Under the pieces are notes generated by a model, which saw nothing but the letters and a program-made list of their open reading frames with translations, had not been told where the DNA came from and made no database searches. This document shows positions 2,333 through 29,922 of a DNA stretch of 37,087 nt, piece after piece. This DNA comes from Bacteroidales bacterium (lineage in GTDB: Bacteria; Bacteroidota; Bacteroidia; Bacteroidales; DTU049), in assembly GCA_016937255.1 (NCBI GenBank), contig JAFGWG010000010.1, forward strand, positions 1-37,087, in the 5' to 3' direction. Position 1 is the first letter of the stretch. Every line of letters begins with the position of its first letter. The position numbers and the translations under genes are program-made.

Positions 2333-4201
2333 ATGAATTCTACAAGCATATACCGCATTACGGTCATTGGTTTTACGGTACTATTGCTTTTTTCTTTTTC
2401 CTCAATATCGGCACAGAAAAAGAAAGTTCAGGCATCGTGGACCATTGAACAAAAAATCGATTCATTATGTGAATGGTCGTGGAACGAACGGCGAAATAAT
2501 AATAATTTAAGCCAGGAATATGTGCAACAGGCTCTTTCTTTAGCCGAAAAAGTCTCTGATGATTGTGTAAAAGGAAAGGTTAATTTCTATCAAGGTTCGG
2601 TTTTTTTCAATAAAGGTGATGCAGAAAATGGCAAACAATCGTTTACCATTGCTCTAAACTTGCTCGATAATTGTTCAGATCCTTTTCTTTTAGCACGAGT
2701 GTATAATGGCATAGGGCTTTGCAATGCCGATTTATCCAATTTTCAAAAATCTATCGACAATTATGAGTTGGCATTAAATATTTATATTCAGGAAAGTGAT
2801 AGCGAAGGAATTGCTTTGCAAAAACAAAATATCGGCGTTATTTATTATCAGGTTGGGCAAATGGATAAGGCTTTGCAATACTATTTGGAAGCAGAGTATA
2901 TTCTTATTAATATGCCCAATGCCCGAACAACAGTTCTTGCAAACAATTATGTAAATACAGCTATTATTTACAATAATTTAAACGATATTGAAACCGCAAA
3001 AAGGTATTATAGAAAAGCCATTCATTTATACTCATCTACCAACGACAGGGTTGGTCTTGGCGAAGCCTATTCAAATCTTGCTGTTTTATACTTCGATTTA
3101 AACCTCGACAGCTCTTTTTATTATCATAGTGCAGCACTTAATATTTATGCCGAAAGTGGAAATATGCAGCGCGAAGGTCTTGCACGAACGTATGTAGCAG
3201 ATATTTACCGTGAATGGGGTGAAAACGACTCGGCGCTTGTATATTATTCCCAATCGCTGATTCTTTTGCATGAATACTCCTTTTCTTACGGCCTTATTTC
3301 GGCTTATACCGGACGGGGAAGGTTGTATCGTGAAATGCAAAAATATCCCGAAGCTGTCTCCGATTTATTAGCTGCTATGGATACTGCTCATGCCATTCAA
3401 GCCCTGAGTTTAGAAGTTATGGCTAGTTTTGAACTGGCTGAAACCTATTATCAAATGGGAACCTTTCAGGAGGCATATAAAACGCTGATGCTTCACAAAA
3501 CGCTGAGTGACAGCCTATTAGGTGTTGAAAAGATAGATTTGATGAAGAATTTAGAGTTTTCTTACGAAACAGCTAAAAAAGAAATTCTTATTGAAAAACT
3601 GGAAAGCGAAAAAAAATTATATCGTTTTCGTTTCATTTTAATCTTTGTAGCTTCGGTATTCGTTATCTTATTATTATTGCTTTGGCTTAACAGGCAACGA
3701 GTTAACCGACAAAAAGACTTGGCTTTGGCAGAAGCTAAAAATGCTTTATCCGAAGCTAATCTTATTGCAGCAAATGTAGATATAGAAATGCGCAAAAAAT
3801 TGCTTTTAAGTTATGCTATGCGTATTTCTGAAAAAAATGAACTTCTCGAAGATATTCGCGACACTCTGAAAAGCAAGAAAGAATTCGTTGCTAAGGATAA
3901 AAAAGAGGTCATTTCTCTTATTAATCGTCATTTAATTATTCCTTCCGAACGCGAAGAACTTAATACCTTGGTTAAGCAAACAGGAGAAGTATTTTTTCAA
4001 AAATTGGCTTATTATACCGACAACCTGACCGATACCGAAAAAAAAATATGCGTTTTCCTTTCTTTGGGGTTAAGCTCAAAAGAAATGGCTTCTATTATTA
4101 GTATCAGCCCTGCGACTGTCGATAATTACCGCAGCTCTATAAGAAAAAAACTAAAACTCGATTCTTCGATAAACTTAGATGAGTTTCTACAAAAATTGTG
4201 A
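2333..4201 (+). CDS. TPR sensor with transmembrane helix and LuxR-type HTH
   Basis: This 622-residue membrane-bound regulator has a signal sequence (residues 1-27, ending SISAQ). About seven to eight TPR repeats cover residues 50-400. A single strong membrane helix lies at about 430-452, followed by a charged coiled coil at about 455-530. The C-terminal LuxR/GerE-like helix-turn-helix spans about 565-609 (LTDTEKKICVFLSLGLSSKEMAS, then SPATVDNYRSSIRKKL). This architecture is widespread in Bacteroidota: an outward-facing TPR region is thought to sense a partner and a cytoplasmic HTH to act on DNA. The gene starts 4 bp after the T9SS cargo gene and lies just upstream of the giant T9SS gene, so it may regulate these surface proteins; that is inference. 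No kinase or receiver domain is present. Confidence 0.88.
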   Translation: MNSTSIYRITVIGFTVLLLFSFSSISAQKKKVQASWTIEQKIDSLCEWSWNERRNNNNLSQEYVQQALSLAEKVSDDCVKGKVNFYQGSVFFNKGDAENGKQSFTIALNLLDNCSDPFLLARVYNGIGLCNADLSNFQKSIDNYELALNIYIQESDSEGIALQKQNIGVIYYQVGQMDKALQYYLEAEYILINMPNARTTVLANNYVNTAIIYNNLNDIETAKRYYRKAIHLYSSTNDRVGLGEAYSNLAVLYFDLNLDSSFYYHSAALNIYAESGNMQREGLARTYVADIYREWGENDSALVYYSQSLILLHEYSFSYGLISAYTGRGRLYREMQKYPEAVSDLLAAMDTAHAIQALSLEVMASFELAETYYQMGTFQEAYKTLMLHKTLSDSLLGVEKIDLMKNLEFSYETAKKEILIEKLESEKKLYRFRFILIFVASVFVILLLLLWLNRQRVNRQKDLALAEAKNALSEANLIAANVDIEMRKKLLLSYAMRISEKNELLEDIRDTLKSKKEFVAKDKKEVISLINRHLIIPSEREELNTLVKQTGEVFFQKLAYYTDNLTDTEKKICVFLSLGLSSKEMASIISISPATVDNYRSSIRKKLKLDSSINLDEFLQKL

Positions 4202-4415
4202 GATAATATTTATTGAGATATAATTAGTTATACAATAACGTATGAGATTTTTTTACGATCACTTGCTCTTTCATGAGCTTTTTATGAGATATTTAATTTC
4301 CTTTCCACATCTTTGCTTACGATATTTGTACTCGTGTTTGTTTCACTGAATTAATGAGGTTTTTTCTTTTTCAATGTAAGCGGATTTTCAGCCAACGAAT
4401 TTAATATTTACTGTT
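4202..4415. promoter_or_regulatory. intergenic region before the giant gene, with near-consensus -7 box
   Basis: This 214-nt gap contains CATCTTTG at 4308-4315, one mismatch from TAnnTTTG, which would give a leader of about 95 nt. TGAGAT occurs four times in or beside its first part (4199-4204, 4214-4219, 4243-4248, 4285-4290). No hairpin terminator for the preceding gene is evident. Confidence 0.4.
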
Positions 4416-7400
4416 ATGAGACGTATATTCTGTTTTCTTTTTGTGTTAACATTCTCTTTTTGCGCATTATCGCAAACAGTTAAACCCGACAGCGGTCTTA
4501 TTTTGCATTATCCCTTAAATGGCGATGCGCTCGATCAAAGCGGGAATGGCAATCATGGAGCCGTTTCTACCGCAGGAGTTTATGCTTCGCCCAATAAATC
4601 AAAACTTACTGATAGCGCTATGTTTTTTAATGGTGCTTATGAGCAGGGAAACATCAATATGCCGTTGAATATCATGAACGGAAGAACTGAATTTAGTATG
4701 AGTTTTTGGTTTAATCTTGCTTCTGCTACTTCTGGGATGAGTCTGGTAGGTCTCGATAATGTGCTCGAAACAGGTTTTTACACTTCTCCAAATCGTATTA
4801 CGGTTTATCATCCAACCTCAGGAAGTATCAATTCTGTTACCCTTACACAAACCACCGGCGTTTGGCAACACTTAGCCATTACTTGTAGTGCCTCAGAAAT
4901 TAAAATATACCTCAATGGTTCGCTCGCTCATTCAGCCTCCGGCAATTATTCATTGGGTAGTAATACGGTTACTCCCAATATCGGAGGAAATGTCGTAAAC
5001 CAATCCAATAACTCTTGGTTTCGCGGAAGCATTGATGAGGTGCGGTTTTACGATCGTGTAATCAATCAGAACGAAGTGAATTTGCTGTCCTCTGCATTGT
5101 CATTAACCTATGGAATTTCTTCAATTAGCTCCACCAATCTTTGTGCCGGCGATCAATTTGATGTTTCATATCTGATTATGGGTGCCGGAGTGTATGCCAA
5201 TAATGTGTTTACCTTACAACTTAGCGATGAAAACGGCAGTTTCGACAATCCTTATATTCTTGCCTCTCAGGCCGGTACGGGCAGTGGGTCTTTTTTGGGC
5301 GCAAGTATTCCCGATTTTATTGAAACATCTAATTTATATAAAATTCGCGTCGTAAGCAATATGCCAATGTTTGAAGGCACTGAATCTACTCAAAGCCTTA
5401 ATATTTTTAATCCCTCTGAATCTAAATCTACCCTCGAAAATGGCAGAATCTTATGGTATAAATTCGACTCCAATACTGCCGATAGCAGTGGAAATGGGAT
5501 GGACGGCACTGCAATAGGAGGATGCTCTTATGTGGCTGACCGCAATGGTAATCTTTTTTCCGCCATCCAGTTTAATGGCACCAATGCTTATGTTGATGTG
5601 CCCGATGCTCCCTGGTTCGATGGTAACCCTTTTGCAGCTTCTTGTTGGGTAAAGCCTTTGGCATACAATTATTGGAGCCGTATTTTCGATTTCAGTCAGG
5701 GTGAAAATGATGAAAATATTGTATGGGCTCTCAGCAATGCAACTACGGGTAAACAATTTGTGAGTTTCAGGCTAGGATCTACTGAGGTTACCACTCTAAA
5801 CGGTACAGTCTTACCTCTCAATCAATGGAGTCATGTTGCTTTTTCTTTCGATGGAAGTAACCTGCATTTGTATATTAATGGATCTGAAATTGCCTCAACT
5901 TCAGCTTCAGCTCCTCGTTATATCCAGCGTACGGTTAATTATATCGGCAGAAGTGCTTGGGCTTCCGATTCTTATGCCAATGCTGTTTACGACGACTTCG
6001 GCTTGTGGAACAGGGCGCTAACGGAAAATGAAATTAAAACGCTTTATTCCTCGTCATTAATTTATTCTAATTCTCCTGTTTGCAATGGAAATGTAATTCA
6101 TTTAGAAGCTCCATATATTACAGTAGCAAGCTATGCATGGTCTGGTCCTTCTTTTTCTGCTACGGGCAGAGTACAGGATATTCCATCGGTTAGTGCTGCG
6201 AATCAAGGTATGTACTATGTAACCATCAACAATGGTTCTTGTTCTTATACCGATAGCCTTTATGTTAATGTTATTACTCCCGGCAGTCAAAGCGCGGCTT
6301 CATTAACGGGCTTACCCAATTTTACTTACACCGATGCCGCTACCAATACTCTTGTCGGGAATCCTACCGGTGGTGTTTTCGCAGGTCCCGGTATTAGTGG
6401 CTCTGTATTTGACCCTACCGCTGCCGGAATAGGTACTCATATTATTGTCTATAGTTACATGAACGCGGGTGGCTGCGTTAGTACAGCTTCTGATACCGTT
6501 TTTGTTGGCTATGGCGTGAACATGCAGGATACCATTATTACTGCCTGCAAAGGTGGATTTTTCGATAGTGGCGGTCGTTCTGCCAATTATTCCGACAACG
6601 AATCCTCTACCATAACCTTCTGTTCGGGCGGCTCCGAGCGTTTGCAGTTCTATTTTAAAGCCATGAGTATTGGCATCGGCGATACTCTTTGGGCTTACGA
6701 TGGACCCAATACTTCTTCTGAACTAATTGCCATGTACATTGCCTATTCGGGCACCGATTACCTATGGTCTTCTTCTTCTTGTCTCACGTTTCGCTTTAAA
6801 AGCAATGGGTCTTCCACAACCAGTGGCTGGGAAGCTGAATATCAATGTATGACTGACCCGGTTATTGCTAATGAATATACCAATGTCAGCGGTGGATTCC
6901 GAACTTTTTGTAGCGGTGTTCTTCGCGACCCGGGCGGAAGCGGCAATTATACTGTGCCTTCTTATCGAACCGAAACCTACAAATCTTCTGATGGAAATAA
7001 ACTCAAATTCGATTTTTCATTTTTAACTGTTAATGGGAATAATGGTGGGCATTGGGTCAGTTTTTACGATGGTCCTACTACCGCTTATCCTAAAATCGGG
7101 TCTTACAACGAATGGGCATGGCCCCCTTCTTCTATCGTTGAAACCTCGCAAGAATATGTAACCGTTGTTTTCGATGCCAATAATACTTCTGCCGGATCAC
7201 GCTCGGGTTTTGAAGCCACTATTTCTTGTACCAGTTCCCCCGATTCAGTTATTACCATGCACGACACAACTATAAGTATTTGTTCTGCAGTAATATACGA
7301 CCACGCAGGTCCGGCTGCAAATTATGCTGCAAATCGGCGCGATACCATGACTTTATGTTCAGATTCAGGCAATTTACTCAAGTTTTCTTTCAATCACAAT

Positions 7401-10400
7401 GAAACAGGATTCGCTTCCGGTGATACTCTTTGGATTTTTGATGGCAATGATTGTTCTGGCGAATTATTGGGCATGTATATTAGCTCTACCCGAATGGATA
7501 ATGTTTTTTCTCTTTCATCCTGTGTTACATTTGTTTTTCATAGCGACGCCTCGTCTCAGTCACGTGGTTGGCAAGGTTTTTTATCGTGTGTACCTGTACC
7601 CGCGGTGGTTAATTATAACATCAGTACGGGAATAAGGGGGGCTTGCGAAGGAATTATTCGCGATCCGGGGGGTACATCAAATTATAGCGTGCCTAGTTCT
7701 GCCCGACAAACCTATAAGTCTTTTAATGGGAATCGGATACGACTGGATGTCAACTCTCTTAGTATTAATGGCAATAATGGAGGTCATTGGTTGCATGTGT
7801 ATGATGGACCATCTTCTTCATACCCACGTATTGGCAGTTATAATCAATGGGCGTGGCCATCGGGTAGCGTTATTGAAAGTACTGGTGAATATTTAACACT
7901 GTATTTCGATGCGACCAATACCAGCGCCGGCTCTGCAGCAGGTTTTGAACTTGACCTTGCTTGTACTACTCCTGTTTTACCTATCTTTATAATGAAAGAT
8001 ACAACAATTTCAGTATGCGATGCTGTTATTTACGATAATGGCGGTCCAGCTGCCAATTATTCAGATAATTTGGATGATACCATGACCATTTGCAGTGCTT
8101 TGGGGCAACTGCTTTCTTTAACTTTTAATCATAATGTTAGCCAGTTTAGCAGCGGAGATACCCTTTGGATTTTTGATGGGCCCACAACATCTTCGCCTCA
8201 GTTGGGGATGTATATTTCATCTTCGAGAATTGATAACATTGTTTCGAGCGATACTTGTTTAACCCTTCGTTTTAAATCTAATTCTTCGGGCAATTCGCGG
8301 GGTTGGCAGGGTTATTTATCTTGCATTACCGCTCCTTCCGGTCAGGTTTCATACAATATGAGCTCTGGTGAACGAAATGTTTGTGCCGGCAAATTTTACG
8401 ATCCGGGTGGTACGGGTAATTATCCCGACGGTGTATATACTCAAACATTCACTTCCTATAGTGGTGAAAGACTGCGTTTTACTAGAGTTTCATTCAACGT
8501 AAACGGCAATAACGGCGGGCATCCATTTAAGGTTTATGATGGGCCGTCTACTGCATCTCCACTCATTGGAACATACACAAATTTTGCATTTCCACCAACT
8601 GTTTTCCAATCGACAGGTTCAAGCCTTACTTTTAACTTTAACAGCACTAATACATCTGCCGGAAATACAGCCGGTTGGGAATTCGACATTTCTTGCTTTA
8701 CCAACGATCCTATTGATGTAACATGGCTCAATAGCCCCCTTTGTCAAGGCGAATATTTTGATATTCCTTTCATACTAAACGACACCGTAAATGCAGGGAA
8801 TATTTTTACAGCACAATTGAGCAATGCTTCGGGTAGTTTTGCCTCTCCGGTAAATATTGGGTTGCTTACCGATACATTATCGGGAACAATAATCGCTCAG
8901 ATTCCTCTTGCAACGCCGCCCGGAACCGGCTATCGTGTGCGTGTTGTGTCGTCAAACCCGGCTATGGTGGGTAGCATTTCTCCTAATCCTATAGTTATCG
9001 TTGAAACTCCTGTTGCTGCCAATATTACTGCTGTTGGTAATACAACTTTTTGTCAGGGTTCAGGCAGTGTTAGCCTAAGTGCTCCTAATCAAAATGGGGT
9101 GAATTATGCATGGAAAAAAGACGGAATAAGCATCGGAACAAATAATCCTGTTTTATCAGCTACTCAAGCCGGTGTTTATACGCTCGAAATCTCAAATTCA
9201 TGCGATACGGTTTTAGCTGTAAACAGTATTACACTGATGGAAGAAAGTCCGCTTGCTAAACCTTTAATCGGGAATAACGGTTCTCTGTCATTTTGTTTAG
9301 GTGATAGTGTAATCCTATTCAGCGATAGTGTTTCGGGAGTAACTTACCATTGGTATAAAAATGGTGTCGATTTGGGCATAGATACTCATTTCGTATTAGT
9401 GTTTGATGCAGGTAATTATGCTGTTCAAATTGAAAATGTCTGTGGTTTATCTCCTTTTTCAGATACCGTGCAAGTTAGTATTTCCGGCGCTGTTCCTTTG
9501 GCGCAAACTATTATCGCTTACGGCTCAACTCATTTTTGCCCCGGCGATAGTGTTATGCTTAGCGTAACTTATAATTCCGGAAATTCATATCAGTGGTTTG
9601 CCGACGGAACACCCGTTTTTTCCGATACCAATGAAGTTTATGCCAAAAATGTGGCTACATACACAGTAGAAGAAAGTAATCTATGTGGAAATTCTCTTTC
9701 TTCAAACAGTATTGGCATTACTCATAAAGATGAGATTCAAGCGGTTTCAATAACAGCAAGCGGACCTTTAAGTTTTTGCAATGGCTCTTCGGTTATTTTA
9801 TCTACCGATTATATTTCGGGGCAACATTATCAGTGGTATAAAAACGGTAATCTATTATCTGGCGATACCAGCAGTATTTTGGTTTCCGATTCAGGTTTTT
9901 ATACCGTTAGCACTTGGAACGAATGCGGTTTGCTGGCTTCGACCGATACTCTTGAAGTGATTATTTTGGGTGATATTCCTGCTACTCCCGTTATCAGTGC
10001 TTCCGGTCCGGTTTCGTTTTGCAGTGGCGATAGCGTTGTTTTATCGTCTTCTATACCAAGCGGCAATGTTTGGTCAAACGGTGAAACTACTCAAAACATA
10101 ACAGTCCTTAATTCAAATTTCTATTATGTTTTTGCCGATGGTGGAAACGGCTGTGTAAGCGACACTTCAAATATCATTGTGGTTGAATCCTACCCTGTGC
10201 CGACTGCAGCAGTAAATAGCAGCTCACCAACACTTTGTCCCAACGACTCCTTCGTGGTCTTAACAGCAGGTGGAGGCAATACTTATGAATGGTTCTTTAA
10301 TGGATTAGCCAATGGAGTAAGCACTCAAACCTTGCACGCAGACAGTATCGGAACCTATATGGTGATTGCTGAAAACACCTATTCTTGTACCGATACGGCA

Positions 10401-11951
10401 AGTTTCATATTAACTCAAGGAATTTTACCTGTGGCTACATTAAGCTATGCAGCTAATCATTTCTGTCAAGGCAGCTCAATGACTATCGATGTTATGGGAA
10501 GTGGAATAAGTTCATATATTTGGTATAGAAATTCACTTCTTTTGTCTGGTTATACAAGTAGCTCTCATGCTGTTTTTTCGGATGGCTTATACTTTGTTGA
10601 AGTTGAAAACACCGATGGTTGCAGTGCTGTAACAGATTCTGTAATAATGACTATGGATACTTTGCCCACAGCAAATCTTTCTGCATCTTCTCTTAGTTTT
10701 TGTTCGGGCTCTTCGGTAGTTCTTACAGCCGATGTGGTACCGGGAGCTAATTATGAATGGATTAAAGATGGAATTACAACGGGAGTTTCCGGGGCATCAA
10801 ATTCATACACAGCATCTATTGCAGGCGAATATTATGTTATGGTTTCCACCAATTGCAGCAATCAATCAAACAGCATTTTCATTACAGAAAGTACAGTACC
10901 GGGATCGGCAGGACCTATTAGCGGAACAGCATCTTTTTGCCCGGGAGAAGAGTTAAGTTTCTTTATTGCTGCGGTAAGCGGTGCCGACTATTATTGGTGG
11001 GAAATTACACCTAGCAATGCTGCAAGTATTATTAATGGACAAGGAACAAATACCGTAGCTATTGCCTCAATGAATACTAATTTCAACATTAGTGTTACTC
11101 CTCGAAATGATTGTGGCGACGGAAATGCTTCTTCAAAAACTGTTTCTGTTATTACCAACGGTTCCTGCGATTTTAATATTATGTTTGCCGGTACTCCGGG
11201 AAATGTTTGCCAAGGAAATAGTGTGATTTTTTACAACTATACAAATTCTTCATATTATCCGGGAAGTACACCCCAGTGGAATTTTGGCTCAGGAGCAAGT
11301 CCGGCAACCGCATCTGGAAATGGTCCGCATACCGTAACTTATTCCACTCAGGGTTTTAAAACCGTAACGCTAGATTATGTCGATAATTTTAGTGGTATGT
11401 CAATTGGTAGCGAAACCAAATACGATTATATATTTGTCAGCCCACCGGTAAATACATCTGCAATATCGGGTAACACTTTTGTGCAATGCGACGGGTCAAC
11501 AGAATACTATTATGTTGTCGAAACATCAGGCTCTATTTATACTTGGTCGGTTCCTGTAGGTGTTTCCATCATTAGCGGGCAGGGTACCCATGAGGTTTTG
11601 TTGCAATTCAATTCTGCTGCAGGACAAATTAGCGTTGAAGAGCTTTCTAATTCGGGTTGTACAGGCAATGAGGTTGTTCTTAATGTCTCTTGCAATACAG
11701 TAAGTATCAGTTCAAATGAGAATAATAGTTTACTTGTATTTCCAAACCCTGCAAATGAATATGTTATGGTCTCCGCAGATTTTATTATTGAAAAAATTGA
11801 GCTGTACAGTATGCAAAACAAATTGATCTTTAGCTCAGAGCCCATGACCAAAGAATATAAACTCACATTAAAAACACTACCGGCTGCTTCGTATCAACTG
11901 CGTATTATCTCAGAAAATGAAGTGAAAACGCTGTTGTTGATTAAGGAATAA
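4416..11951 (+). CDS. giant modular T9SS-secreted surface protein (LamG, CUB-like, Ig/PKD-like)
   Basis: This 2511-residue protein has a signal peptide at residues 1-20. A LamG/concanavalin-like domain covers about 24-225 (SGLILHYPLNGDALDQSGNGNHG to IDEVRFYDRVINQNEV), then an Ig-like spacer at 235-330, then a second LamG at about 341-545. Ig-like modules follow. Six Cys-containing CUB-like domains cover about 708-1427, arranged as three A-B pairs: A carries GDTLW..DG, B carries NGNNGGH. About eight Ig-like modules, each starting around FCxGxSV, fill about 1530-2160, then PKD-like modules to about 2425. The last 80 residues are a T9SS type A sorting domain (LVFPNPANEYVMV to SYQLRII). No enzymatic motif is seen. 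It is best read as a cell-surface or released glycan/protein-binding adhesin. It ends at a strong terminator shared with the convergent WD40 gene. Confidence 0.9.
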   Translation: MRRIFCFLFVLTFSFCALSQTVKPDSGLILHYPLNGDALDQSGNGNHGAVSTAGVYASPNKSKLTDSAMFFNGAYEQGNINMPLNIMNGRTEFSMSFWFNLASATSGMSLVGLDNVLETGFYTSPNRITVYHPTSGSINSVTLTQTTGVWQHLAITCSASEIKIYLNGSLAHSASGNYSLGSNTVTPNIGGNVVNQSNNSWFRGSIDEVRFYDRVINQNEVNLLSSALSLTYGISSISSTNLCAGDQFDVSYLIMGAGVYANNVFTLQLSDENGSFDNPYILASQAGTGSGSFLGASIPDFIETSNLYKIRVVSNMPMFEGTESTQSLNIFNPSESKSTLENGRILWYKFDSNTADSSGNGMDGTAIGGCSYVADRNGNLFSAIQFNGTNAYVDVPDAPWFDGNPFAASCWVKPLAYNYWSRIFDFSQGENDENIVWALSNATTGKQFVSFRLGSTEVTTLNGTVLPLNQWSHVAFSFDGSNLHLYINGSEIASTSASAPRYIQRTVNYIGRSAWASDSYANAVYDDFGLWNRALTENEIKTLYSSSLIYSNSPVCNGNVIHLEAPYITVASYAWSGPSFSATGRVQDIPSVSAANQGMYYVTINNGSCSYTDSLYVNVITPGSQSAASLTGLPNFTYTDAATNTLVGNPTGGVFAGPGISGSVFDPTAAGIGTHIIVYSYMNAGGCVSTASDTVFVGYGVNMQDTIITACKGGFFDSGGRSANYSDNESSTITFCSGGSERLQFYFKAMSIGIGDTLWAYDGPNTSSELIAMYIAYSGTDYLWSSSSCLTFRFKSNGSSTTSGWEAEYQCMTDPVIANEYTNVSGGFRTFCSGVLRDPGGSGNYTVPSYRTETYKSSDGNKLKFDFSFLTVNGNNGGHWVSFYDGPTTAYPKIGSYNEWAWPPSSIVETSQEYVTVVFDANNTSAGSRSGFEATISCTSSPDSVITMHDTTISICSAVIYDHAGPAANYAANRRDTMTLCSDSGNLLKFSFNHNETGFASGDTLWIFDGNDCSGELLGMYISSTRMDNVFSLSSCVTFVFHSDASSQSRGWQGFLSCVPVPAVVNYNISTGIRGACEGIIRDPGGTSNYSVPSSARQTYKSFNGNRIRLDVNSLSINGNNGGHWLHVYDGPSSSYPRIGSYNQWAWPSGSVIESTGEYLTLYFDATNTSAGSAAGFELDLACTTPVLPIFIMKDTTISVCDAVIYDNGGPAANYSDNLDDTMTICSALGQLLSLTFNHNVSQFSSGDTLWIFDGPTTSSPQLGMYISSSRIDNIVSSDTCLTLRFKSNSSGNSRGWQGYLSCITAPSGQVSYNMSSGERNVCAGKFYDPGGTGNYPDGVYTQTFTSYSGERLRFTRVSFNVNGNNGGHPFKVYDGPSTASPLIGTYTNFAFPPTVFQSTGSSLTFNFNSTNTSAGNTAGWEFDISCFTNDPIDVTWLNSPLCQGEYFDIPFILNDTVNAGNIFTAQLSNASGSFASPVNIGLLTDTLSGTIIAQIPLATPPGTGYRVRVVSSNPAMVGSISPNPIVIVETPVAANITAVGNTTFCQGSGSVSLSAPNQNGVNYAWKKDGISIGTNNPVLSATQAGVYTLEISNSCDTVLAVNSITLMEESPLAKPLIGNNGSLSFCLGDSVILFSDSVSGVTYHWYKNGVDLGIDTHFVLVFDAGNYAVQIENVCGLSPFSDTVQVSISGAVPLAQTIIAYGSTHFCPGDSVMLSVTYNSGNSYQWFADGTPVFSDTNEVYAKNVATYTVEESNLCGNSLSSNSIGITHKDEIQAVSITASGPLSFCNGSSVILSTDYISGQHYQWYKNGNLLSGDTSSILVSDSGFYTVSTWNECGLLASTDTLEVIILGDIPATPVISASGPVSFCSGDSVVLSSSIPSGNVWSNGETTQNITVLNSNFYYVFADGGNGCVSDTSNIIVVESYPVPTAAVNSSSPTLCPNDSFVVLTAGGGNTYEWFFNGLANGVSTQTLHADSIGTYMVIAENTYSCTDTASFILTQGILPVATLSYAANHFCQGSSMTIDVMGSGISSYIWYRNSLLLSGYTSSSHAVFSDGLYFVEVENTDGCSAVTDSVIMTMDTLPTANLSASSLSFCSGSSVVLTADVVPGANYEWIKDGITTGVSGASNSYTASIAGEYYVMVSTNCSNQSNSIFITESTVPGSAGPISGTASFCPGEELSFFIAAVSGADYYWWEITPSNAASIINGQGTNTVAIASMNTNFNISVTPRNDCGDGNASSKTVSVITNGSCDFNIMFAGTPGNVCQGNSVIFYNYTNSSYYPGSTPQWNFGSGASPATASGNGPHTVTYSTQGFKTVTLDYVDNFSGMSIGSETKYDYIFVSPPVNTSAISGNTFVQCDGSTEYYYVVETSGSIYTWSVPVGVSIISGQGTHEVLLQFNSAAGQISVEELSNSGCTGNEVVLNVSCNTVSISSNENNSLLVFPNPANEYVMVSADFIIEKIELYSMQNKLIFSSEPMTKEYKLTLKTLPAASYQLRIISENEVKTLLLIKE
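6539..8697 (+). repeat. three A-B pairs of CUB-like domains within the giant gene
   Basis: The B-domain motif NGNNGGH begins at codons 873, 1118 and 1363, giving an exact 245-residue period twice. The A-domain motif GDTLW has its Asp at codons 756, 1003 and 1248, periods 247 and 245. Between copies the DNA has diverged, so the triplication is old and kept in register at protein level. Confidence 0.85.
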
Positions 11952-22547: not shown

Positions 22548-22560
22548 TAAAAATTTGAAT

Positions 22561-24156
22561 ATGAAAAAGATAATAATTCTTTCGGGCTTATTTTTGATTT
22601 TAATATCTGCTATGGCTCAAAACACTTCGAATAACTCGGTTTTTAATATTGATAACCAAAACGAAATTCCTGTGAAAAGCACCGCAGCCATTGTTCAGGT
22701 TCTGGATTCAACCATTGATTATACATATAATAGTGGGTGGGAATATACGGAGAAGGAAATCGTGAATATCCGACACTGGGAAAGTGGTTATCCTTGGGAA
22801 ACACTGTTCTATGCATTTGATGGGGGCGTTTGGAATCCGTTTATAAAAGCTCATATAAATTGGTACGACAGTATTACTTATCAAACTTATAACCTTTATC
22901 CATGGAATTCATTTATGTTAGATTGGAACCCCGACGCTTTGGCGCATTATAGTTTTGCTCAACATCAAACATCGCAGTTTGGCCAAGTGTATAATGATGT
23001 GAGTTTCATGATGTCGTATGATTTTAGTGTTAATCAGTTTACCGGTGGGACTAAAATCAGGCCAACAATGCACAATGATACGCTTTATGACAGTTATTCC
23101 TTGGATGATTATAATGTTGCTACTAGCCTTTGGGAACCAAATGAAACTTATATCTTTACGTATACACCGGAAGGGTTAATAAAGACCATTCTACATAAAG
23201 CCTATAATACCATCACTTCATCTTATGAAAACTTGAGGTACCAAGTATCGGCTTATTCAGGTACAAATATCCTTTTAAATGTAGAACAGAACTGGCTTGT
23301 TGACCACTGGGAGAATAATGTAAAAACTGAATACAGCTATAATGGCAACAACCAAATATCCAGTAAAACCAAATATATCTGGAATAATATTACTGAAGAA
23401 TGGGATCCAGAGGGTCGTCATTTATACACTTATTCAGTAAATGATTTAGTTAATGATACTTATCAAAGCTACAGCGGAGTCTCTTATGATTATTCGTACC
23501 GAAATTTATATACCTACGATGTAAGCGGAAATATGCTTTCGCGACAATATGATTCATATACAGGTGGAGTTTGGGTAAACGGAATACTGTATGAATACAC
23601 CTTTAATTCAAATAATGACAGGCTTACATACAAAAAAAGCAACTGGAATAGTGGATTAAATACATGGGTAAACTCTATCCTAAATACTTACACTTATAAT
23701 GCAAATTTCAACCTCACTCAACAATTGTATCAAAGCTGGGACTTAGGCTTGTTATCTTGGGTGAATGTAGAGAAGTATGATTACACTTTTGATGCTAATT
23801 TCAATAAAACCAAGAAAGAGTTTTCAAATTGGGATAATATTGGTGGTGTATGGGAATATGCTGATAAAACCGAATATTTCTGGTCACAATACGATGCAAA
23901 TAGTGTTCAGGAAATTTTCATTAACCCAATGAATGTATTTCCAAACCCAAGTAATGGCTTGATAAATATTAATATTGAGAACGATATTTATAATACACTC
24001 ACTATTTGCGATAATAACGGAAAAACTGTTCTGGTTAAGTCCATTAATGGCAGAGAAGAGCAGATTGATTTGACGCAATATGGAAAAGGGTATTATATGA
24101 TTACTCTTAGCAATGAGTATGGCGAATCCGAATCTCGGAAGCTGATGGTTTACTAG
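22561..24156 (+). CDS. T9SS-secreted Trp-rich YD-like repeat protein (copy 1)
   Basis: This 531-residue protein is counted from the ATG at 22561; the TTG at 22555 is not needed. A signal peptide ends near residue 20 (ISAMAQ). Residues about 45-170 form an N-terminal region shared with the next gene (STAAIVQVLDS, IRHWESGYPWE, HINWYDS, PWNSFMLDWNPD). Residues about 170-440 hold about eight repeats of 30-40 residues, each with a Trp-containing strand followed by a YTY-like strand, such as VWVNGILYEYTFNSNNDRL. They resemble YD/RHS-type repeats. The last 75 residues are a T9SS type A sorting domain (VFPNPSNGLININIE). No catalytic residues are seen. A secreted structural or binding role is inferred. 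It is a tandem paralogue of the following gene. Confidence 0.85.
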   Translation: MKKIIILSGLFLILISAMAQNTSNNSVFNIDNQNEIPVKSTAAIVQVLDSTIDYTYNSGWEYTEKEIVNIRHWESGYPWETLFYAFDGGVWNPFIKAHINWYDSITYQTYNLYPWNSFMLDWNPDALAHYSFAQHQTSQFGQVYNDVSFMMSYDFSVNQFTGGTKIRPTMHNDTLYDSYSLDDYNVATSLWEPNETYIFTYTPEGLIKTILHKAYNTITSSYENLRYQVSAYSGTNILLNVEQNWLVDHWENNVKTEYSYNGNNQISSKTKYIWNNITEEWDPEGRHLYTYSVNDLVNDTYQSYSGVSYDYSYRNLYTYDVSGNMLSRQYDSYTGGVWVNGILYEYTFNSNNDRLTYKKSNWNSGLNTWVNSILNTYTYNANFNLTQQLYQSWDLGLLSWVNVEKYDYTFDANFNKTKKEFSNWDNIGGVWEYADKTEYFWSQYDANSVQEIFINPMNVFPNPSNGLININIENDIYNTLTICDNNGKTVLVKSINGREEQIDLTQYGKGYYMITLSNEYGESESRKLMVY

Positions 24157-24179
24157 AAATATTATAAAATAATTTTAAG

Positions 24180-24203
24180 GGAGGCCAATGTGCCTCCTTT
24201 TTT
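24180..24203 (+). terminator. hairpin terminator after copy 1
   Basis: GGAGGC (24180-24185) and GCCTCC (24192-24197) form a GC-rich 6-bp stem with a 6-nt loop, followed by six T. Confidence 0.85.
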
Positions 24204-24378
24204 ATTCTTTATGTTATAGGAACACCTTCAATTGCATAGGTTTTTCAAGCCAATTCACATGTATTAGCAATTCAAAAAAATTTGTCGAACAATAAACATT
24301 TGAAATCAAAAGGGTCAAAAATAAACTTAAATATTTAACATACAGATCGGTTATTTTTTTATACAAGAAAAAATGTTG

Positions 24379-24386
24379 TATTTTTG
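24379..24386 (+). promoter_or_regulatory. -7 promoter box of the second YD-like gene
   Basis: TATTTTTG fits TAnnTTTG, 22 nt before the ATG at 24401. The -33 region is T-rich with no exact TTTG. The preceding gap (24204-24378) shows no other structure I can name. Confidence 0.6.
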
Positions 24387-24400
24387 AAAAAAAATAAACC

Positions 24401-26008
24401 ATGAAAATAGTATCCTTTGCAATAGTATTTCTTCTTTTTTCTTTCTGTGTTTTCTCACAAGATGTAAATGATTTGAAGATTAAAAAAATTGATGCCAAGC
24501 TAAGGCATGAAACTCCGGTGAAAAACACAGCTGCCATTGTGCAGGTTTTGGATTCCGCTATCGGTTATTCTTACAGTACTCACTGGGATGAGTCAACTAA
24601 GTCTGTCACAACAATTCGCCATTGGGAAGATGGAAGCCCTTATGAAATTATTTATTACGATTATAATGCTGGAACTAGCAGTTGGGACAATAGGGATAAG
24701 GTTCATATAAACTGGCACGACAGTGTGTATTATGCACAGGAAACTTGTTTTCCATGGAACTCTAACTTGCTTACTTGGAATCCAGACACCATGGCCGCCT
24801 ATAATTATGTGTATTATGAAAGTTGGCAGTTTTGGTTTCTTTACAGCGATGTAACATTTAGTAAATCATATGACTATAATACCAATCAATATACCAGTGG
24901 CAACAGATATCGCCCAGTTTTGTTGCATGACACCTTATACGAATATTTTTACGCAGACAATTATAATGTTTCAACTTTTCAATGGGATAATTCCGAAAAA
25001 CAGTCGTATACCTACGATGCAAACGGCATGCTCCAAACCCATCTTGATCAGAATTGGAATAGTAGTACATCATTATATGAAAATGATAATTATTCGAGCT
25101 ACGTATTTTCTGGAAGAAATTTACTTCAATCTACAGATCAAACTTGGGTACCCAACCAATGGATAAATGACGATAAAGACACATATACTTATGATGGCAA
25201 TAATAAAAGGTTGTCACATACCGATTTTGTCTGGAATAATGGCACCACCACATGGGATAGCAATTACAGATACCTTTATACATATTCGGGAAATTTACTA
25301 GAAGAAGAAATAACGCAAAGTTGGAATGGAAGTAGCTGGGATAATGATTATCGTAACGTTTATACACACGATGTTAATGGAAATGTCATTACAAGTCGTA
25401 ATGATGATTGGTCGGGCGGAGCATGGGTGTATTACAGAAAATATACCTACACATATGACGCCAATAATAATCGGCTAACCTCAATGAGGCAGTATTGGAA
25501 TGTAGGAACTACTTCTTGGGATAATGATTATAGAGAAACAAACACCTATAATATCAACAATGACGTTACGTATTATTTGAGAGAAGAATGGGACGCAGGA
25601 ACTACTTCTTGGGTAAACTATAGTAAACAAGATTATACGTATGATGCTAACCTAAACAACACCATGTATATATATGCAAGATGGAATATTTCTGGAAGTG
25701 CTTGGGATTATCAAACTAAGTATCTTTATTATTGGTCGCAATATGATGCCAATAGTGTTCAGGAAATGTTTGCCAGTCCTTTTAATGCATATCCTAATCC
25801 AAGCAATGGATTTGTAAAACTAGATTTAATGGGTAGTGAATTTCAAAACATCACCATTACCGATGCGCAGGGCAAAATCATAATGAATGAGCCGATAGAA
25901 GGTCAAAGCAGAGATATTAATCTTGGGTTTTACGGTAAGGGCTTGTATATTATTACCCTTAGTAATGATTATGGCGAGCATAGTGACAGGAAAATTTTAG
26001 TGCAGTAG
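24401..26008 (+). CDS. T9SS-secreted Trp-rich YD-like repeat protein (copy 2)
   Basis: This 535-residue paralogue of the preceding gene has a signal peptide (residues 1-20, ending VFSQ). The same N-terminal region follows: NTAAIVQVLDS, IRHWEDGSPYE, HINWHDS, PWNSNLLTWNPD. About eight Trp/Tyr repeats cover residues about 190-450 (SYTYDANGM, DTYTYDGNNKRL, YTYTYDANNNRLTS, QDYTYDANLNN). It ends in a T9SS type A sorting domain (AYPNPSNGFVKLDLM to GLYIITL). The YTYDxNxNR segments are the nearest to true YD repeats in the pair. The gene has its own promoter and terminator, so the two copies are separately controlled. A 17-nt identical stretch at 25504-25520 and 25597-25613, 93 bp apart, marks a later in-frame repeat. 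Function unknown; secretion is well supported. Confidence 0.87.
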   Translation: MKIVSFAIVFLLFSFCVFSQDVNDLKIKKIDAKLRHETPVKNTAAIVQVLDSAIGYSYSTHWDESTKSVTTIRHWEDGSPYEIIYYDYNAGTSSWDNRDKVHINWHDSVYYAQETCFPWNSNLLTWNPDTMAAYNYVYYESWQFWFLYSDVTFSKSYDYNTNQYTSGNRYRPVLLHDTLYEYFYADNYNVSTFQWDNSEKQSYTYDANGMLQTHLDQNWNSSTSLYENDNYSSYVFSGRNLLQSTDQTWVPNQWINDDKDTYTYDGNNKRLSHTDFVWNNGTTTWDSNYRYLYTYSGNLLEEEITQSWNGSSWDNDYRNVYTHDVNGNVITSRNDDWSGGAWVYYRKYTYTYDANNNRLTSMRQYWNVGTTSWDNDYRETNTYNINNDVTYYLREEWDAGTTSWVNYSKQDYTYDANLNNTMYIYARWNISGSAWDYQTKYLYYWSQYDANSVQEMFASPFNAYPNPSNGFVKLDLMGSEFQNITITDAQGKIIMNEPIEGQSRDINLGFYGKGLYIITLSNDYGEHSDRKILVQ

Positions 26009-26055: not shown

Positions 26056-26084
26056 AAAAGGCCGCCGATATACGGCGACCTTTT
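26056..26084 (+). terminator. hairpin terminator after copy 2
   Basis: AAAAGGCCGCCG (26056-26067) pairs with CGGCGACCTTTT (26073-26084) with one C/A mismatch and a 5-nt loop. It lies about 50 nt after the stop codon. Confidence 0.85.
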
Positions 26085-26400: not shown

Positions 26401-28353
26401 TCAATCGCTTAAATAACGAATGATGTTTTTCTGCTGTTCAATTCGAATTAAAAAGGACTCTATTATTTTATCATATAAACGATCTCCAAGAAAAAGATCC
26501 TCGACACCTGCATCAATACTAGGATTGTCGTTAACCTCAATAACTAAAACTTCTCCATTTACCTCCTTCAAATCAACGCCATATAAACCATCGCCTATTA
26601 AAGAGGCTGCTTTAAGTGCTGTTTTCAAAACTGTAGCAGGCACCTCTTCAACAGAAAGTGTTTCAGACATTCCGGCCTCTTCGCCCTTTGCACCCTGCCA
26701 GTTATAAATTTGCCAATGATGATCAGACATATAATACTTACAAGCATATAACGCTCTATTGTCGAGTACTCCAATTCTCCAATCAAATTCAGAATATTTA
26801 TATTCCTGACAAATAATCATGTCAGATTTTTTAAATAATTTCAGAATAGATAAATGAGCATCTTCCGCATTATTAACTTTAATAACACCGAGTGAAAAAG
26901 CACTATCGGGTTGCTTAAGAACCAAAGGATAAAAAAATGTATCGCAATCAGATTGCCTGTAATAATTTTTGCTTAGGATAAAAGAATTCGGCGTCTGTAT
27001 TTTGTTTTGGCGAAATAATTCGTACTGATAAATTTTATTCGAACATCGCAATATTGACCATGGATCGTCAATCACTACCAGTCCTTCTGCATAAGCAAGT
27101 CTTGATAATTCATAAGTATGATTGTTTACCGTAGTTGTTTCCCTAATAAAAAGAGCATCAAACTCATTAATGCGATCGAAATCGTTTTTCCTAATAAATT
27201 CCAAATAAATGCCCTGCCTGTTAGCAGCTTGGTGAAATTTTTCCAATGCTTTTGCGCAAGAGGGGCTGTTTTCTTCCGCTGGATTTACCAAAATAGCCAA
27301 ATCGTAAATATAGGAAGGAAGTCTGGCTTTATTGAATCTTTTTTTGTCAAAATATATCCGTGCAAAGTGATTTACATACAGAAATTCATCCTCGCTGATT
27401 TTTCCTGGATTCAAGTTTTGAATTTTCCTAATGATCCAGTTATTATCAATTTTTATAAACTGTACACTAAGCAATGGCGACTCAAAAAGCTTATACAAGC
27501 GCATTGCCAATTTTTTGAATCCCCTTATTGGGCTATGCCCAAAGTAAATGTTTATGGTAAATCGGTCGACATTGATGTGTTTAAAAGAAGAATTTAATAG
27601 ATCCGACATTTCTGTGCTAATGGATCGAATAATATTGGTGCTGCTAAAATCGCGAATAGTTGCAACACTAGGTATTACTCGCTGACCACGCGCAGAAGCC
27701 AGTAAAGACACATAATAGCCATAACTTTGATAGTGATACGAACTGCACAAATTGAATATGCGCAAATTTGAGTCAGAATGATAAACGGATTTGCTGATAT
27801 ACTCTTTAACGGAAATTATTTCTGCGTTAATATTAGTAAACGAGTGGCTCCTTGGATGATTCATAACAATCAGGTTTTTAATACCAATTGTTTCTCCATA
27901 ATCAATTAATAATTCCATTTTTATACAATCCTCACCCGCAGTATAATAATCTTTTATATGTCGAACCTCTCTAAAACCCAACGATTTATACCATTTTAGC
28001 AAGGTGTCGTTTGTCGCTGATGCTTCCAAAACAACACTGCGTTTTCTCATTTCTCGTGCTTTGCCCAGCACTTCTTTTATTAGAAAGGCTCCCATTCCTT
28101 GGTGACGAAAATCAGGGTGAACAGCAACAGAGTAAATGCGCAAAGTATGTTTATAAACAAAAAGAATTATACTCCCCCCTGCTTCAACTTTGCCGTTTTT
28201 ACTTTCACAAATCCAGCATTGTTGAAATGAACTTTCAATGCTGTGAGTTAAATTTCTTCTATTGCTCCGTTGAAATTTTTCAAACGCAGATTCTTCCAGC
28301 ATTTCCAGAAAAGCTAGGTCACTTTTCTCAGCTAATCGAAGATTAAATTGCAT
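26401..28353 (-). CDS. GNAT acetyltransferase-RLAN-ATP-grasp fusion
   Basis: This 650-residue protein has three parts. Residues 1-150 are a GNAT acetyltransferase with the acetyl-CoA loop VAVHPDFRHQGMGAFLIKE and the later NDTLLKWYKSLGFREVRH. Residues about 155-345 look like the RimK-like ATP-grasp N-terminal (RLAN) domain (FNLCSSYHYQSYGYYVSLLASARGQRVIPS). Residues about 355-645 are a RimK-like ATP-grasp ligase: DAFFIRE-like LFIRETT, IDDPWSILRCSNKIYQYELF, PLVLKQPDSAFSLGV, and the metal site VIEVNDNPS with Glu606 and Asn608. ATP-grasp ligases of this class join an amino acid to a carboxylate using ATP; the GNAT part would acylate an amine. The product is unknown. It starts 21 bp after gmk and is probably in its operon. 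The family was noted in comparative surveys of amidoligases. Confidence 0.88.
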   Translation of the reverse strand: MQFNLRLAEKSDLAFLEMLEESAFEKFQRSNRRNLTHSIESSFQQCWICESKNGKVEAGGSIILFVYKHTLRIYSVAVHPDFRHQGMGAFLIKEVLGKAREMRKRSVVLEASATNDTLLKWYKSLGFREVRHIKDYYTAGEDCIKMELLIDYGETIGIKNLIVMNHPRSHSFTNINAEIISVKEYISKSVYHSDSNLRIFNLCSSYHYQSYGYYVSLLASARGQRVIPSVATIRDFSSTNIIRSISTEMSDLLNSSFKHINVDRFTINIYFGHSPIRGFKKLAMRLYKLFESPLLSVQFIKIDNNWIIRKIQNLNPGKISEDEFLYVNHFARIYFDKKRFNKARLPSYIYDLAILVNPAEENSPSCAKALEKFHQAANRQGIYLEFIRKNDFDRINEFDALFIRETTTVNNHTYELSRLAYAEGLVVIDDPWSILRCSNKIYQYELFRQNKIQTPNSFILSKNYYRQSDCDTFFYPLVLKQPDSAFSLGVIKVNNAEDAHLSILKLFKKSDMIICQEYKYSEFDWRIGVLDNRALYACKYYMSDHHWQIYNWQGAKGEEAGMSETLSVEEVPATVLKTALKAASLIGDGLYGVDLKEVNGEVLVIEVNDNPSIDAGVEDLFLGDRLYDKIIESFLIRIEQQKNIIRYLSD

Positions 28354-28374
28354 GGCTTTATATAGCTAAAATAA

Positions 28375-28935
28375 TTATTTTAAAAAAGACAAAATGGCCG
28401 CTTCGCTTTTATTAATGGCCAGGTCTAGTGAGTCGTTTATAATACTGATATCAAATTTTTCCTCAAAGCTCAACTCGAAAGAAGCTCTTTGCAAACGTTT
28501 TTGGATAGATTCTTCATTTTCCGTTTTTCTTTCTCTCAAGCGTTTTTCCAAAACATCAAGTGATGGTGTTTTTATAAAAATAGATAATGCATCATTGCCC
28601 AGAATCTCCTTTAACCGAACTCCTCCTTTAACATCTACATCAAAAACAACGGCTTTTTTTTCGGCCCAAACACGATTACACTCTGAGATAAGAGTTCCGT
28701 AATACACATCTTCATACACTTCTTCCCATTCTAAAAAAAGATCCTTTTCAATTTTTGTTTTAAAATCAAGAGCACTGATAAAGAAATAATCTTTGCCGTC
28801 TTTTTCATAATTTCTTGGTTTACGGCTGGTGGCAGAAATGCTAAATCCCAGCGGCAATCCTCTTTCTATGAGCTTATGCACTATAGTGGTTTTTCCTGAA
28901 CCACTTGGAGCCGAAAAGATGATGGCTTTTTGCAT
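28375..28935 (-). CDS. gmk: guanylate kinase
   Basis: Gmk phosphorylates GMP to GDP with ATP, a step in nucleotide synthesis, in the cytosol. The 186-residue length is usual. The P-loop is APSGSGKTT (residues 9-17). The GMP-binding region includes SATSRKPRNYEKDGKDYFF and EWEEVYEDVYYGT, and DVDVKGGVRLKE follows; the lid segment is RLRERKTENEESIQKRL. The ATG overlaps the yicC stop by 1 nt (TAATG), showing translational coupling. The GNAT-ATP-grasp gene follows 21 bp later. Confidence 0.97.
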   Translation of the reverse strand: MQKAIIFSAPSGSGKTTIVHKLIERGLPLGFSISATSRKPRNYEKDGKDYFFISALDFKTKIEKDLFLEWEEVYEDVYYGTLISECNRVWAEKKAVVFDVDVKGGVRLKEILGNDALSIFIKTPSLDVLEKRLRERKTENEESIQKRLQRASFELSFEEKFDISIINDSLDLAINKSEAAILSFLK

Positions 28936-29816
28936 TATAAAATATTTAAAACCTGTTCCTTAATTTTTTCCAATTCATCTTTCATTTCTACAACCATCTT
29001 TTGAATTTCAAAATGAGCTGCTTTATTGCCAAGAGTATTAATTTCGCGACCCATTTCCTGAGAAATAAAACTTAGTTTTTTCCCCGCTCCTTGTCTCCCT
29101 GCTTCAGAAACGCTTTGACGGAAATAGTTTATATGCTGAGCCAAACGAACTTTTTCTTCTGTGATATCTGCTTTTTCGAGATAATAAATCATTTCTTCTT
29201 CAAATCGCATAGGATTATATTCGGCTTTTTGCGGAAGTTTTTCAAGTTCCTTTACTATTTTCGTTCTTTGATGCTGAATGCGCTCTTCTTCAAATGCAGG
29301 AATTTGATTCAATTTTTCCTCAATAATTTCAGCGTGTTCAAGCAATTTCTTTTCAAGGGCTTCGCCTTCTTTTTCGCGAAAATCGACACAAGACGCGAGT
29401 GCAATATTTATATTTTCCAACAAAAACCTCCATTCTTCATCACTAAGTTCGTCGGAAGAGGGAAGAACTACATCGGGCATCTTCAGTACAAGCCCAAGCC
29501 AATCGGCAGGAGCATCAATATCCATTTTTTCTTTTAAAGATGTCAATTCATTATAATATTGTAGTGCTTTTGCCTCATTAACAGAGAAATTCCCTTTCCC
29601 TTCGGCAGCCTCTGCATTAATCATAATGTCAATTTTCCCTCTGTTCAGCACATTGGTAACCAATTGCCTGATTTCCTGCTCTTTTTCACGATATCGTTGT
29701 GGCATTTTAATGCTGATATCGCATTGTTTACTGTTGAGGGTACGGATTTGCACATTAATTATGGCATCATTGCTCTCATTTTGTGCTTTTCCAAATCCGG
29801 TCATTGATTGTAGCAT
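28935..29816 (-). CDS. yicC: YicC-family endoribonuclease/stress protein
   Basis: This 293-residue protein starts at the ATG at 29816, which gives the family's hallmark N terminus MLQSMTGFGKAQ. An upstream ATG at 29873 would add 19 unlike residues. The N-terminal YicC domain includes IRTLNSKQCDISIKMPQRYREKEQEIR. The C-terminal DUF1732 domain ends with GKKLSFISQEMGREINTLGNKA and a helical tail EMKDELEKIKEQVLNIL. YicC proteins have been reported as endoribonucleases involved in RNA decay. The gene overlaps gmk by 1 nt, the usual yicC-gmk pairing. In many Bacteroidota nadD follows gmk; here it does not. Confidence 0.93.
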   Translation of the reverse strand: MLQSMTGFGKAQNESNDAIINVQIRTLNSKQCDISIKMPQRYREKEQEIRQLVTNVLNRGKIDIMINAEAAEGKGNFSVNEAKALQYYNELTSLKEKMDIDAPADWLGLVLKMPDVVLPSSDELSDEEWRFLLENINIALASCVDFREKEGEALEKKLLEHAEIIEEKLNQIPAFEEERIQHQRTKIVKELEKLPQKAEYNPMRFEEEMIYYLEKADITEEKVRLAQHINYFRQSVSEAGRQGAGKKLSFISQEMGREINTLGNKAAHFEIQKMVVEMKDELEKIKEQVLNIL

Positions 29817-29893
29817 AGGTCTGAAATTTTGGTAAAAATATAAAATTATTGTTCTTCTTCTCTGTTTTAGCATACTTCTCTTTGGAGAAAAAG

Positions 29894-29922
29894 AAAACCC
29901 CTGCCGTGAAGCAAGGGTTTTT
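29894..29922 (-). terminator. hairpin terminator of the S46 peptidase gene
   Basis: AAAACCC (29894-29900) pairs with GGGTTTT (29915-29921), with an inner TGC/GCA pair after a C/A mismatch. On the minus strand the stem ends in a T-rich run. It lies 21 nt after the peptidase stop. Confidence 0.8.

Follow-up and report, generated by a model that had tools for sequence, protein, structure and literature searches.

A GNAT-RLAN-ATP-grasp fusion protein of a Bacteroidales bacterium as a possible stand-alone N-acetyl-dipeptide synthetase

Introduction

A number of ligases, i.e., LysX/ArgX, RimK and GshB, attach an amine to an N-acylated residue through the carboxylate of the latter. With ArgX, LysX and RimK the amine is that of an amino acid and the carboxylate that of an N-acylated glutamate. 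Acylation of an amine is the reaction of both GCS2-type ligases and GNATs; among the latter, RimI is presumably a single-domain protein. For systems in which a RimK-like N-terminal (RLAN) domain is found with a RimK-like ligase, Iyer et al. reportedly predicted peptide synthesis in 2009 (Mol Biosyst 5:1636). Another relevant system is Ngg, the ligase half of which we take to be an ATP-grasp without RLAN and the partner of which is presumably asnO. As described in the part of the source available to us, one Ngg protein acetylates glutamine and joins a second glutamine to it, which yields N-acetylglutaminylglutamine (PMC8070244).

Here, we describe a gene from a 37,087-nucleotide stretch of DNA of a Bacteroidales bacterium (GTDB lineage DTU049; assembly GCA_016937255.1, contig JAFGWG010000010.1, positions 1 to 37,087), referred to below as the window. 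The gene product carries a GNAT acetyltransferase, an RLAN domain and a RimK-like ATP-grasp ligase in a single polypeptide, and it is, as far as checked, a new variant of the putative RLAN/ATP-grasp peptide synthetases.

Domain composition and conserved residues

The gene and the segments that encode its domains are located as follows.

26401..28353, minus strand: GNAT-RLAN-ATP-grasp fusion gene, 650 aa (open reading frame and Pfam matches)
27904..28353, minus strand: RimI-like GNAT domain, residues 1-150 (Pfam, alignment and structure match)
27385..27807, minus strand: RLAN domain PF14401, residues 183-323 (sequence profile; predicted structure for the fold)
26434..27306, minus strand: RimK/LysX/ArgX-like ATP-grasp module, residues 350-640 (Pfam, structure and profile matches)
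26530..26574, minus strand: metal-site residues Asp594, Glu606 and Asn608 (alignment of relatives)

The first-pass annotation of this DNA had proposed three domains in one protein, and each of them scores above its Pfam cut-off: RLAN (PF14401) with 147.2 bits (E 3.8e-43, cut-off 25, residues 183-323), Acetyltransf_1 (PF00583) with 45.5 bits (E 1e-11, cut-off 20.7, residues 16-127) and RimK (PF08443) with 40.7 bits (E 2.5e-10, cut-off 21, residues 438-614). The ATP-grasp metal site, also said to be intact at Glu606 and Asn608, is indeed present, and none of Asp594, Glu606 and Asn608 varies across the 57 aligned relatives. In the GNAT domain, the acetyl-CoA loop RHQGMG is found at residue 83, while Glu110 and Tyr122 are identical in all 38 aligned sequences that have the domain. 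Their counterparts in a gapless alignment with Salmonella RimI (2cnm) are positions 103 and 115, which we take to be the catalytic base and acid, respectively, of that enzyme. The domains and the conserved catalytic residues support the earlier general idea that the protein may both acylate and ligate.

An AlphaFold model of the protein was obtained with 57 sequences (mean pLDDT 87.4, pTM 0.64). In this model the ATP-grasp module (residues 350-640) is closest to ArgX, LysX and RimK, with Z 26.0 to 24.3 over 262-273 residues, and the GNAT part (residues 1-155) is closest to RimI/Ard1-type acetyltransferases (2cnm, Z 22.4; 4pv6, Z 22.3). The best sequence-profile match of the ATP-grasp module is RimK of P. 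aeruginosa (E 1.2e-11).

Fold of the RLAN domain

When predicted alone from 52 sequences (mean pLDDT 93.5), the RLAN domain matches ArgX, RimK and LysX over the whole length of these enzymes, with the central part missing. The match to 3vpb_B has a Foldseek E of 6.7e-6 and that to 3vpc_C a Z of 11.3 (174 of 191 residues, 4.3 A); among the rows shown, almost all structural matches belong to the ATP-grasp superfamily. These data suggest that RLAN is a contracted, lid-less and probably inactive second ATP-grasp. With a sequence identity of about 10%, a high rmsd and no confirmation from the profile tests, this reading of the fold stays a lead. A search of PDB sequences with the RLAN profile (hmmsearch) returned nothing below E 0.1. 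At the level of sequence, the idea that RLAN arose as a decayed duplicate of the ATP-grasp in the same protein found no confirmation: hhalign of the two profiles gave a probability of 5.2%. In the same comparison with the protein's own ATP-grasp, 15 of 100 column-permuted controls scored as high as the N-terminal part of RLAN, and none of 100 as high as the C-terminal part (reversed-sequence control 18.7 vs 24.4), the register of which seems at odds with the structural one, or as high as the whole domain (reversed control 23.3 vs 26.5). If confirmed, the fold would account for a domain family to which no function is assigned.

Two architectures of the RLAN/ATP-grasp family

The RLAN/ATP-grasp proteins are of two main kinds, i.e., a form of about 490 aa found in an operon with a GCS2-type ligase, and a GNAT-fused form of about 650 aa that stands alone. 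Loci were collected by a scan of named genomes, from which the best 80 of more than 590 candidate stretches were taken, ranked by similarity to the fused family; together with 20 further genome stretches and 5 from plasmid records these make up 105 scored loci with 102 distinct cores. Custom profiles were used to score GNAT, GCS2, C39 and FGase (N-formylglutamate-amidohydrolase-like) within 3 kb of the core. In this sample, which is tilted to the fused form by construction since the searches started from the fused protein, GNAT is fused in 55 loci, GCS2 is adjacent in 39, an unfused GNAT is found in 7 and neither partner in 4. At none of the 105 scored loci do GNAT and GCS2 occur together inside this 3-kb limit.

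The 39 listed GCS2 loci have a C39-type peptidase nearby in 33 cases and an FGase in 29. Near the fused loci, GCS2, C39 peptidase and FGase were found in 0 of the 55 listed, 12 of which have less than 1.5 kb of sequence on one side; neither the window gene nor any of these 55 belongs to a C39 - RLAN/ATP-grasp - GCS2 - FGase operon. The linked hydrolase, peptidase or transporter that the first-pass annotation had suggested looking for was found neither at the window gene nor at the other fused loci, such partners belonging to the unfused form. Five of the seven unfused GNATs are adjacent to the core on the same strand (L057, L110, L140, L198, L200), and in L198 and L200 the GNAT is itself fused to a DUF3335/C39-like peptidase; in L149 the GNAT lies 2.3 kb from the core and in L201 on the other strand. 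In Azospirillum and Tistrella, the gene immediately upstream of the short form encodes a GNAT fused to a C39-like peptidase. The four loci with neither partner are L056, L154, the copy on a P. aeruginosa plasmid (L199) and L153, the contig of which starts only a short way upstream.

An even sample of genomes of the phylum has RLAN over the cut-off in 43 of 395, including the genome of the window. One of these, G213, has only a 209-aa frame; in the remaining 42 the frame is long (about 650-730 aa) in 13 and short (about 480-565 aa) in 29. By comparison of coordinates by eye, GCS2 is found within about 2 kb of 29/29 short forms and 0/13 long forms, and FGase adjoins 20 of the 29 short forms. The order-level sample adds one long form (G042) and two short forms without GCS2, one with an adjoining FGase (G040) and one with an adjoining separate GNAT (G044). 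No GCS2 match was found anywhere in the genomes of four long-form holders, i.e., the window's own genome (G000), G042, G147 and G355; the other 10 long-form genomes have GCS2 elsewhere, weak in nine and strong in G281. The sole FGase of the window's genome is on contig C32.

The same contig harbors, at 3002-6759 of locus L197, a row of three genes on one strand that encode FGase-like, MATCAP-family (PF08014, tubulin tyrosine carboxypeptidase-like) and GshB-like ATP-grasp proteins. This row would be a second ATP-grasp peptide system.

The fused form has no recurrent neighbor beyond near relatives. An inositol-monophosphatase-like gene that adjoins it in Balneola/Gracilimonas-type loci and in L117 was treated as local. 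The fused gene has no conserved partner, and its own context therefore does not name the product. In L117, from a Marinamargulisbacteria MAG, the fusion gene (5974-7926) is situated within a haem-synthesis (hem) cluster, where it overlaps a hemD-type gene by 4 bp and is followed by a class-III aminotransferase gene.

Family tree and distribution

In a tree of 61 cores, rooted for drawing only, 27 of the 29 fused rows form one clade (support 98/92) together with the unfused-GNAT rows L110 and L140, and GCS2 rows surround this clade. The remaining fused rows, L063 and L064, group with alphaproteobacterial GNAT-C39 loci. Along strongly supported branches the label "fused" has to change two or more times, which implies that the ligase acquired GNAT repeatedly, unless some of the changes are losses. 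Because most fused forms are a single clade, the mutual exclusion of GNAT and GCS2 is in part shared ancestry. L063-L065 (genomes G143, G297 and G418) make up a divergent fused lineage apart from the main one, with about 35% identity to the window protein.

Fused forms were found in Bacteroidota, Balneolota, Bacillota, Spirochaetota, Planctomycetota, Thermodesulfobacteriota and others. The nearest named homologue among the matches listed is that of Prolixibacter denitrificans, with 60% identity. RLAN was detected in 3 of the 58 other relatives and in none of the 11 from the window's own family, from which it appears that the window gene is probably a lateral arrival. A search of 50,697 phage records gave no match, and the plasmid matches comprise 11 records, all without a fused GNAT. 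One plasmid record, of Pseudomonas aeruginosa (L199), carries a solitary RLAN/ATP-grasp gene with no GNAT, GCS2, C39 or FGase nearby. Many named holders of the family belong to what we take to be marine or saline genera, and other holders are, by their record titles, digester or spring MAGs. An osmolyte role deduced from these habitats was set aside and is not counted as evidence.

Genomic neighborhood of the window gene

The window gene is flanked by the following features.

28375..28935, minus strand: gmk, guanylate kinase (TIGR03263, 197.3 bits, cut-off 160.45)
28935..29873, minus strand: yicC (TIGR00255, 172.3 bits, cut-off 167.5)
26056..26084, minus strand: terminator-like hairpin downstream of the fusion gene (12-bp stem and T run)
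29894..29921, minus strand: terminator-like hairpin upstream of yicC (12-bp stem and T run)

The TIGR00255 match begins at residue 20 of yicC, so the true start may be 19 codons downstream of the listed one. The gmk gene overlaps yicC by one base and is separated from the fusion gene by 21 bp (28354-28374), in agreement with the placement given earlier. The region has 7 terminator-like sites, compared to 3.1 (sd 1.6) in shuffles, and none was found on the minus strand between gmk and the start of the fusion gene. With hairpins on both sides of yicC-gmk-fusion and none between gmk and the fusion start, a joint transcript is likely, of which the fusion gene is probably the last gene.

The first-pass annotation had further noted that in this phylum the position after gmk is often that of nadD, and had proposed a search for nadD elsewhere in the genome. 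The nadD gene is indeed present, on another contig (C38). At the level of the order the observation on nadD stands: of 47 genomes from the other families, as taken from genome coordinates, 32 have gmk and nadD on one contig with no more than 0.9 kb between them, 11 have the two genes on separate contigs (gmk lying at the edge of its contig in G027 and G055), and 4 lack one or both above the cut-off. It does not extend to the window's own family, where nadD adjoins gmk in 0 of the 9 relatives that have both genes over the cut-off; two further relatives have no nadD over the cut-off. Absence of nadD after gmk in close relatives, named beforehand as a result that would speak against the claim on position, is thus what the family displays, and because gmk goes without a following nadD in this family, nothing indicates that the fusion gene displaced nadD. 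The fusion gene was not found among the downstream neighbors of gmk in the 11 relatives from the own family, and none of the 105 listed homologous loci has gmk beside the RLAN/ATP-grasp gene, the single gmk homologue (in L151) lying on the opposite strand at a distance of about 4.5 kb. These data do not bear out a meaningful replacement of nadD, and the location beside gmk looks incidental.

Elsewhere in the window, 4416-11951 encodes a secreted-looking repeat protein of 2511 aa, the C-terminus of which, as read from the translation, resembles a Bacteroidota type IX secretion sorting domain. Two proteins that look secreted and resemble each other (533 and 535 aa) are encoded in tandem at 22555-26008; by eye, both have repeated YTYD/N-type motifs and similar C-termini.

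Proposed function and alternatives

The domains, the conserved catalytic residues, the two architectures and the absence of any locus with both GNAT and GCS2 point to an N-acyl amino acid that would be extended by the RLAN/ATP-grasp part. The explanation that we tentatively place ahead is that the window protein is a stand-alone bifunctional synthetase of an N-acetyl-dipeptide or an N-acetyl-amino-acid amide. The RimI-like GNAT domain would acetylate a small amino acid or peptide at its alpha-amine, after which the RimK/LysX-like ATP-grasp would use ATP to phosphorylate the free carboxylate of the N-acylated substrate, and a second amino acid would then be attached there through its amine to yield acetyl-X-Y. 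N-acylation in the unfused relatives would fall to a GCS2-type ligase, with gamma-glutamyl in place of acetyl, to give glutamyl-X-Y; GshA acting before GshB in glutathione synthesis would be the model for this order of GCS2 and ATP-grasp, and the C39-type enzymes and FGase would be the matching hydrolases of the operon form. In our reading, which is the simplest account, GNAT and GCS2 would be alternative N-acylating partners of the same ligase; we infer this equivalence, the order of the steps and the kind of substrates. A first guess for the amino acids would be glutamate or glutamine, because RimK, LysX/ArgX and Ngg use these. Counting against the proposal are that the protein is not Ngg, that the exclusivity is partly ancestry and that four loci have neither partner.

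The GNAT domain could equally cap the product after ligation. In a scheme of this kind, which taken as a whole we consider unlikely, the ATP-grasp would first make a di- or oligopeptide, as in RimK-like polyglutamate formation, and the GNAT would then acetylate its N-terminus. This scheme fits with the best structural matches of the GNAT domain, RimI/Ard1, being enzymes that modify the N-termini of peptides. It also fits with the formation of poly-alpha-glutamate by E. coli RimK (PMC12239564, in the part available) and with the proposal, in the accessible part of PMC4431377, that a linked GNAT, operonic with other ATP-grasp families, is a capping enzyme. However, capping does not alone explain that GNAT and GCS2 never occur together in the 105 listed loci. 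A modifier of a cellular protein, e.g., a ribosomal one, to which the enzyme would add an acetyl group and amino acids, is a quite unlikely alternative. The two halves have ribosome-modifying relatives in RimI and RimK, but the matches to RimI (TIGR01575; 59.2 bits for the whole protein, 61.9 for the domain alone, cut-off 86.4) and to the RimK family alpha-L-glutamate ligases (TIGR00768; 69.7 bits, cut-off 143.4) are below the family cut-offs. No match in the window's genome reaches the rimI or rimK_fam cut-off, which leaves room for such a role, but a separate rimI-like gene on contig C222 scores like the fusion (62.7 vs 62.2 bits). Moreover, RimI and RimK target different proteins, and among the neighbor clusters, which were not annotated singly, no ribosomal gene was seen as a conserved neighbor.

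The single, sparse and transferable-looking occurrence of the gene (3/58 other relatives, 43/395 genomes of the phylum, many phyla) would also suit a role in detoxification or resistance, by acetylation and amino-acylation of a foreign amine, and the GNAT matches include resistance enzymes, all far below the cut-off. Such a role is nevertheless highly improbable: the ligase core is as conserved as that of a metabolic enzyme (catalytic residues 57/57), the partners of the short form are glutamate/peptide enzymes, and mobile elements are represented by none of the phage records and by plasmid copies that lack the fused GNAT.

If the N-acetyl-dipeptide synthetase proposal is true, the gene would be a single-gene target for finding unrecognized acetylated small peptides (osmolytes, stores, redox metabolites) in many phyla, and the alternation of GNAT and GCS2 would also predict the product type of the unfused operon. 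A wider version, somewhat unlikely as a whole, would have one-gene N-acetyl-dipeptide synthetases across phyla in which GNAT replaced a GCS2-type glutamate ligase at least twice, and in which RLAN is a shrunken, lid-less second ATP-grasp that makes the ligase an internal pseudo-dimer. A literature search that covered few subscription journals found no paper joining a RimK-like ligase, an acetyltransferase and GCS2, none on RimK with glutamate-cysteine ligase and N-formylglutamate amidohydrolase, and none on an N-acetyl dipeptide with GNAT and RimK.

Comparison with known systems

The window protein shares with RimI the GNAT fold and the aligned Glu/Tyr pair, and with LysX/ArgX and RimK the ATP-grasp module, for which these enzymes are the best structural and profile matches; unlike the window protein, LysX/ArgX and RimK have neither GNAT nor RLAN. 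With the RLAN/RimK-like systems it has in common the RLAN and ATP-grasp core and a family in which GNAT, C39-like peptidase and GCS2 are the partners. In contrast to those operons, the GNAT is fused directly to RLAN-ATP-grasp, and peptidase, GCS2 and FGase are absent from the vicinity. As in Ngg of the NAGGN osmolyte pathway, a GNAT part on the N-terminal side and a ligase are found in one protein, according to the part of PMC8070244 available. The Ngg profile TIGR03103, however, touches only the GNAT part of the window protein (13.6 bits, cut-off 569) and gives no full-length match. By analogy, the window protein most likely works like Ngg while standing outside the Ngg family.
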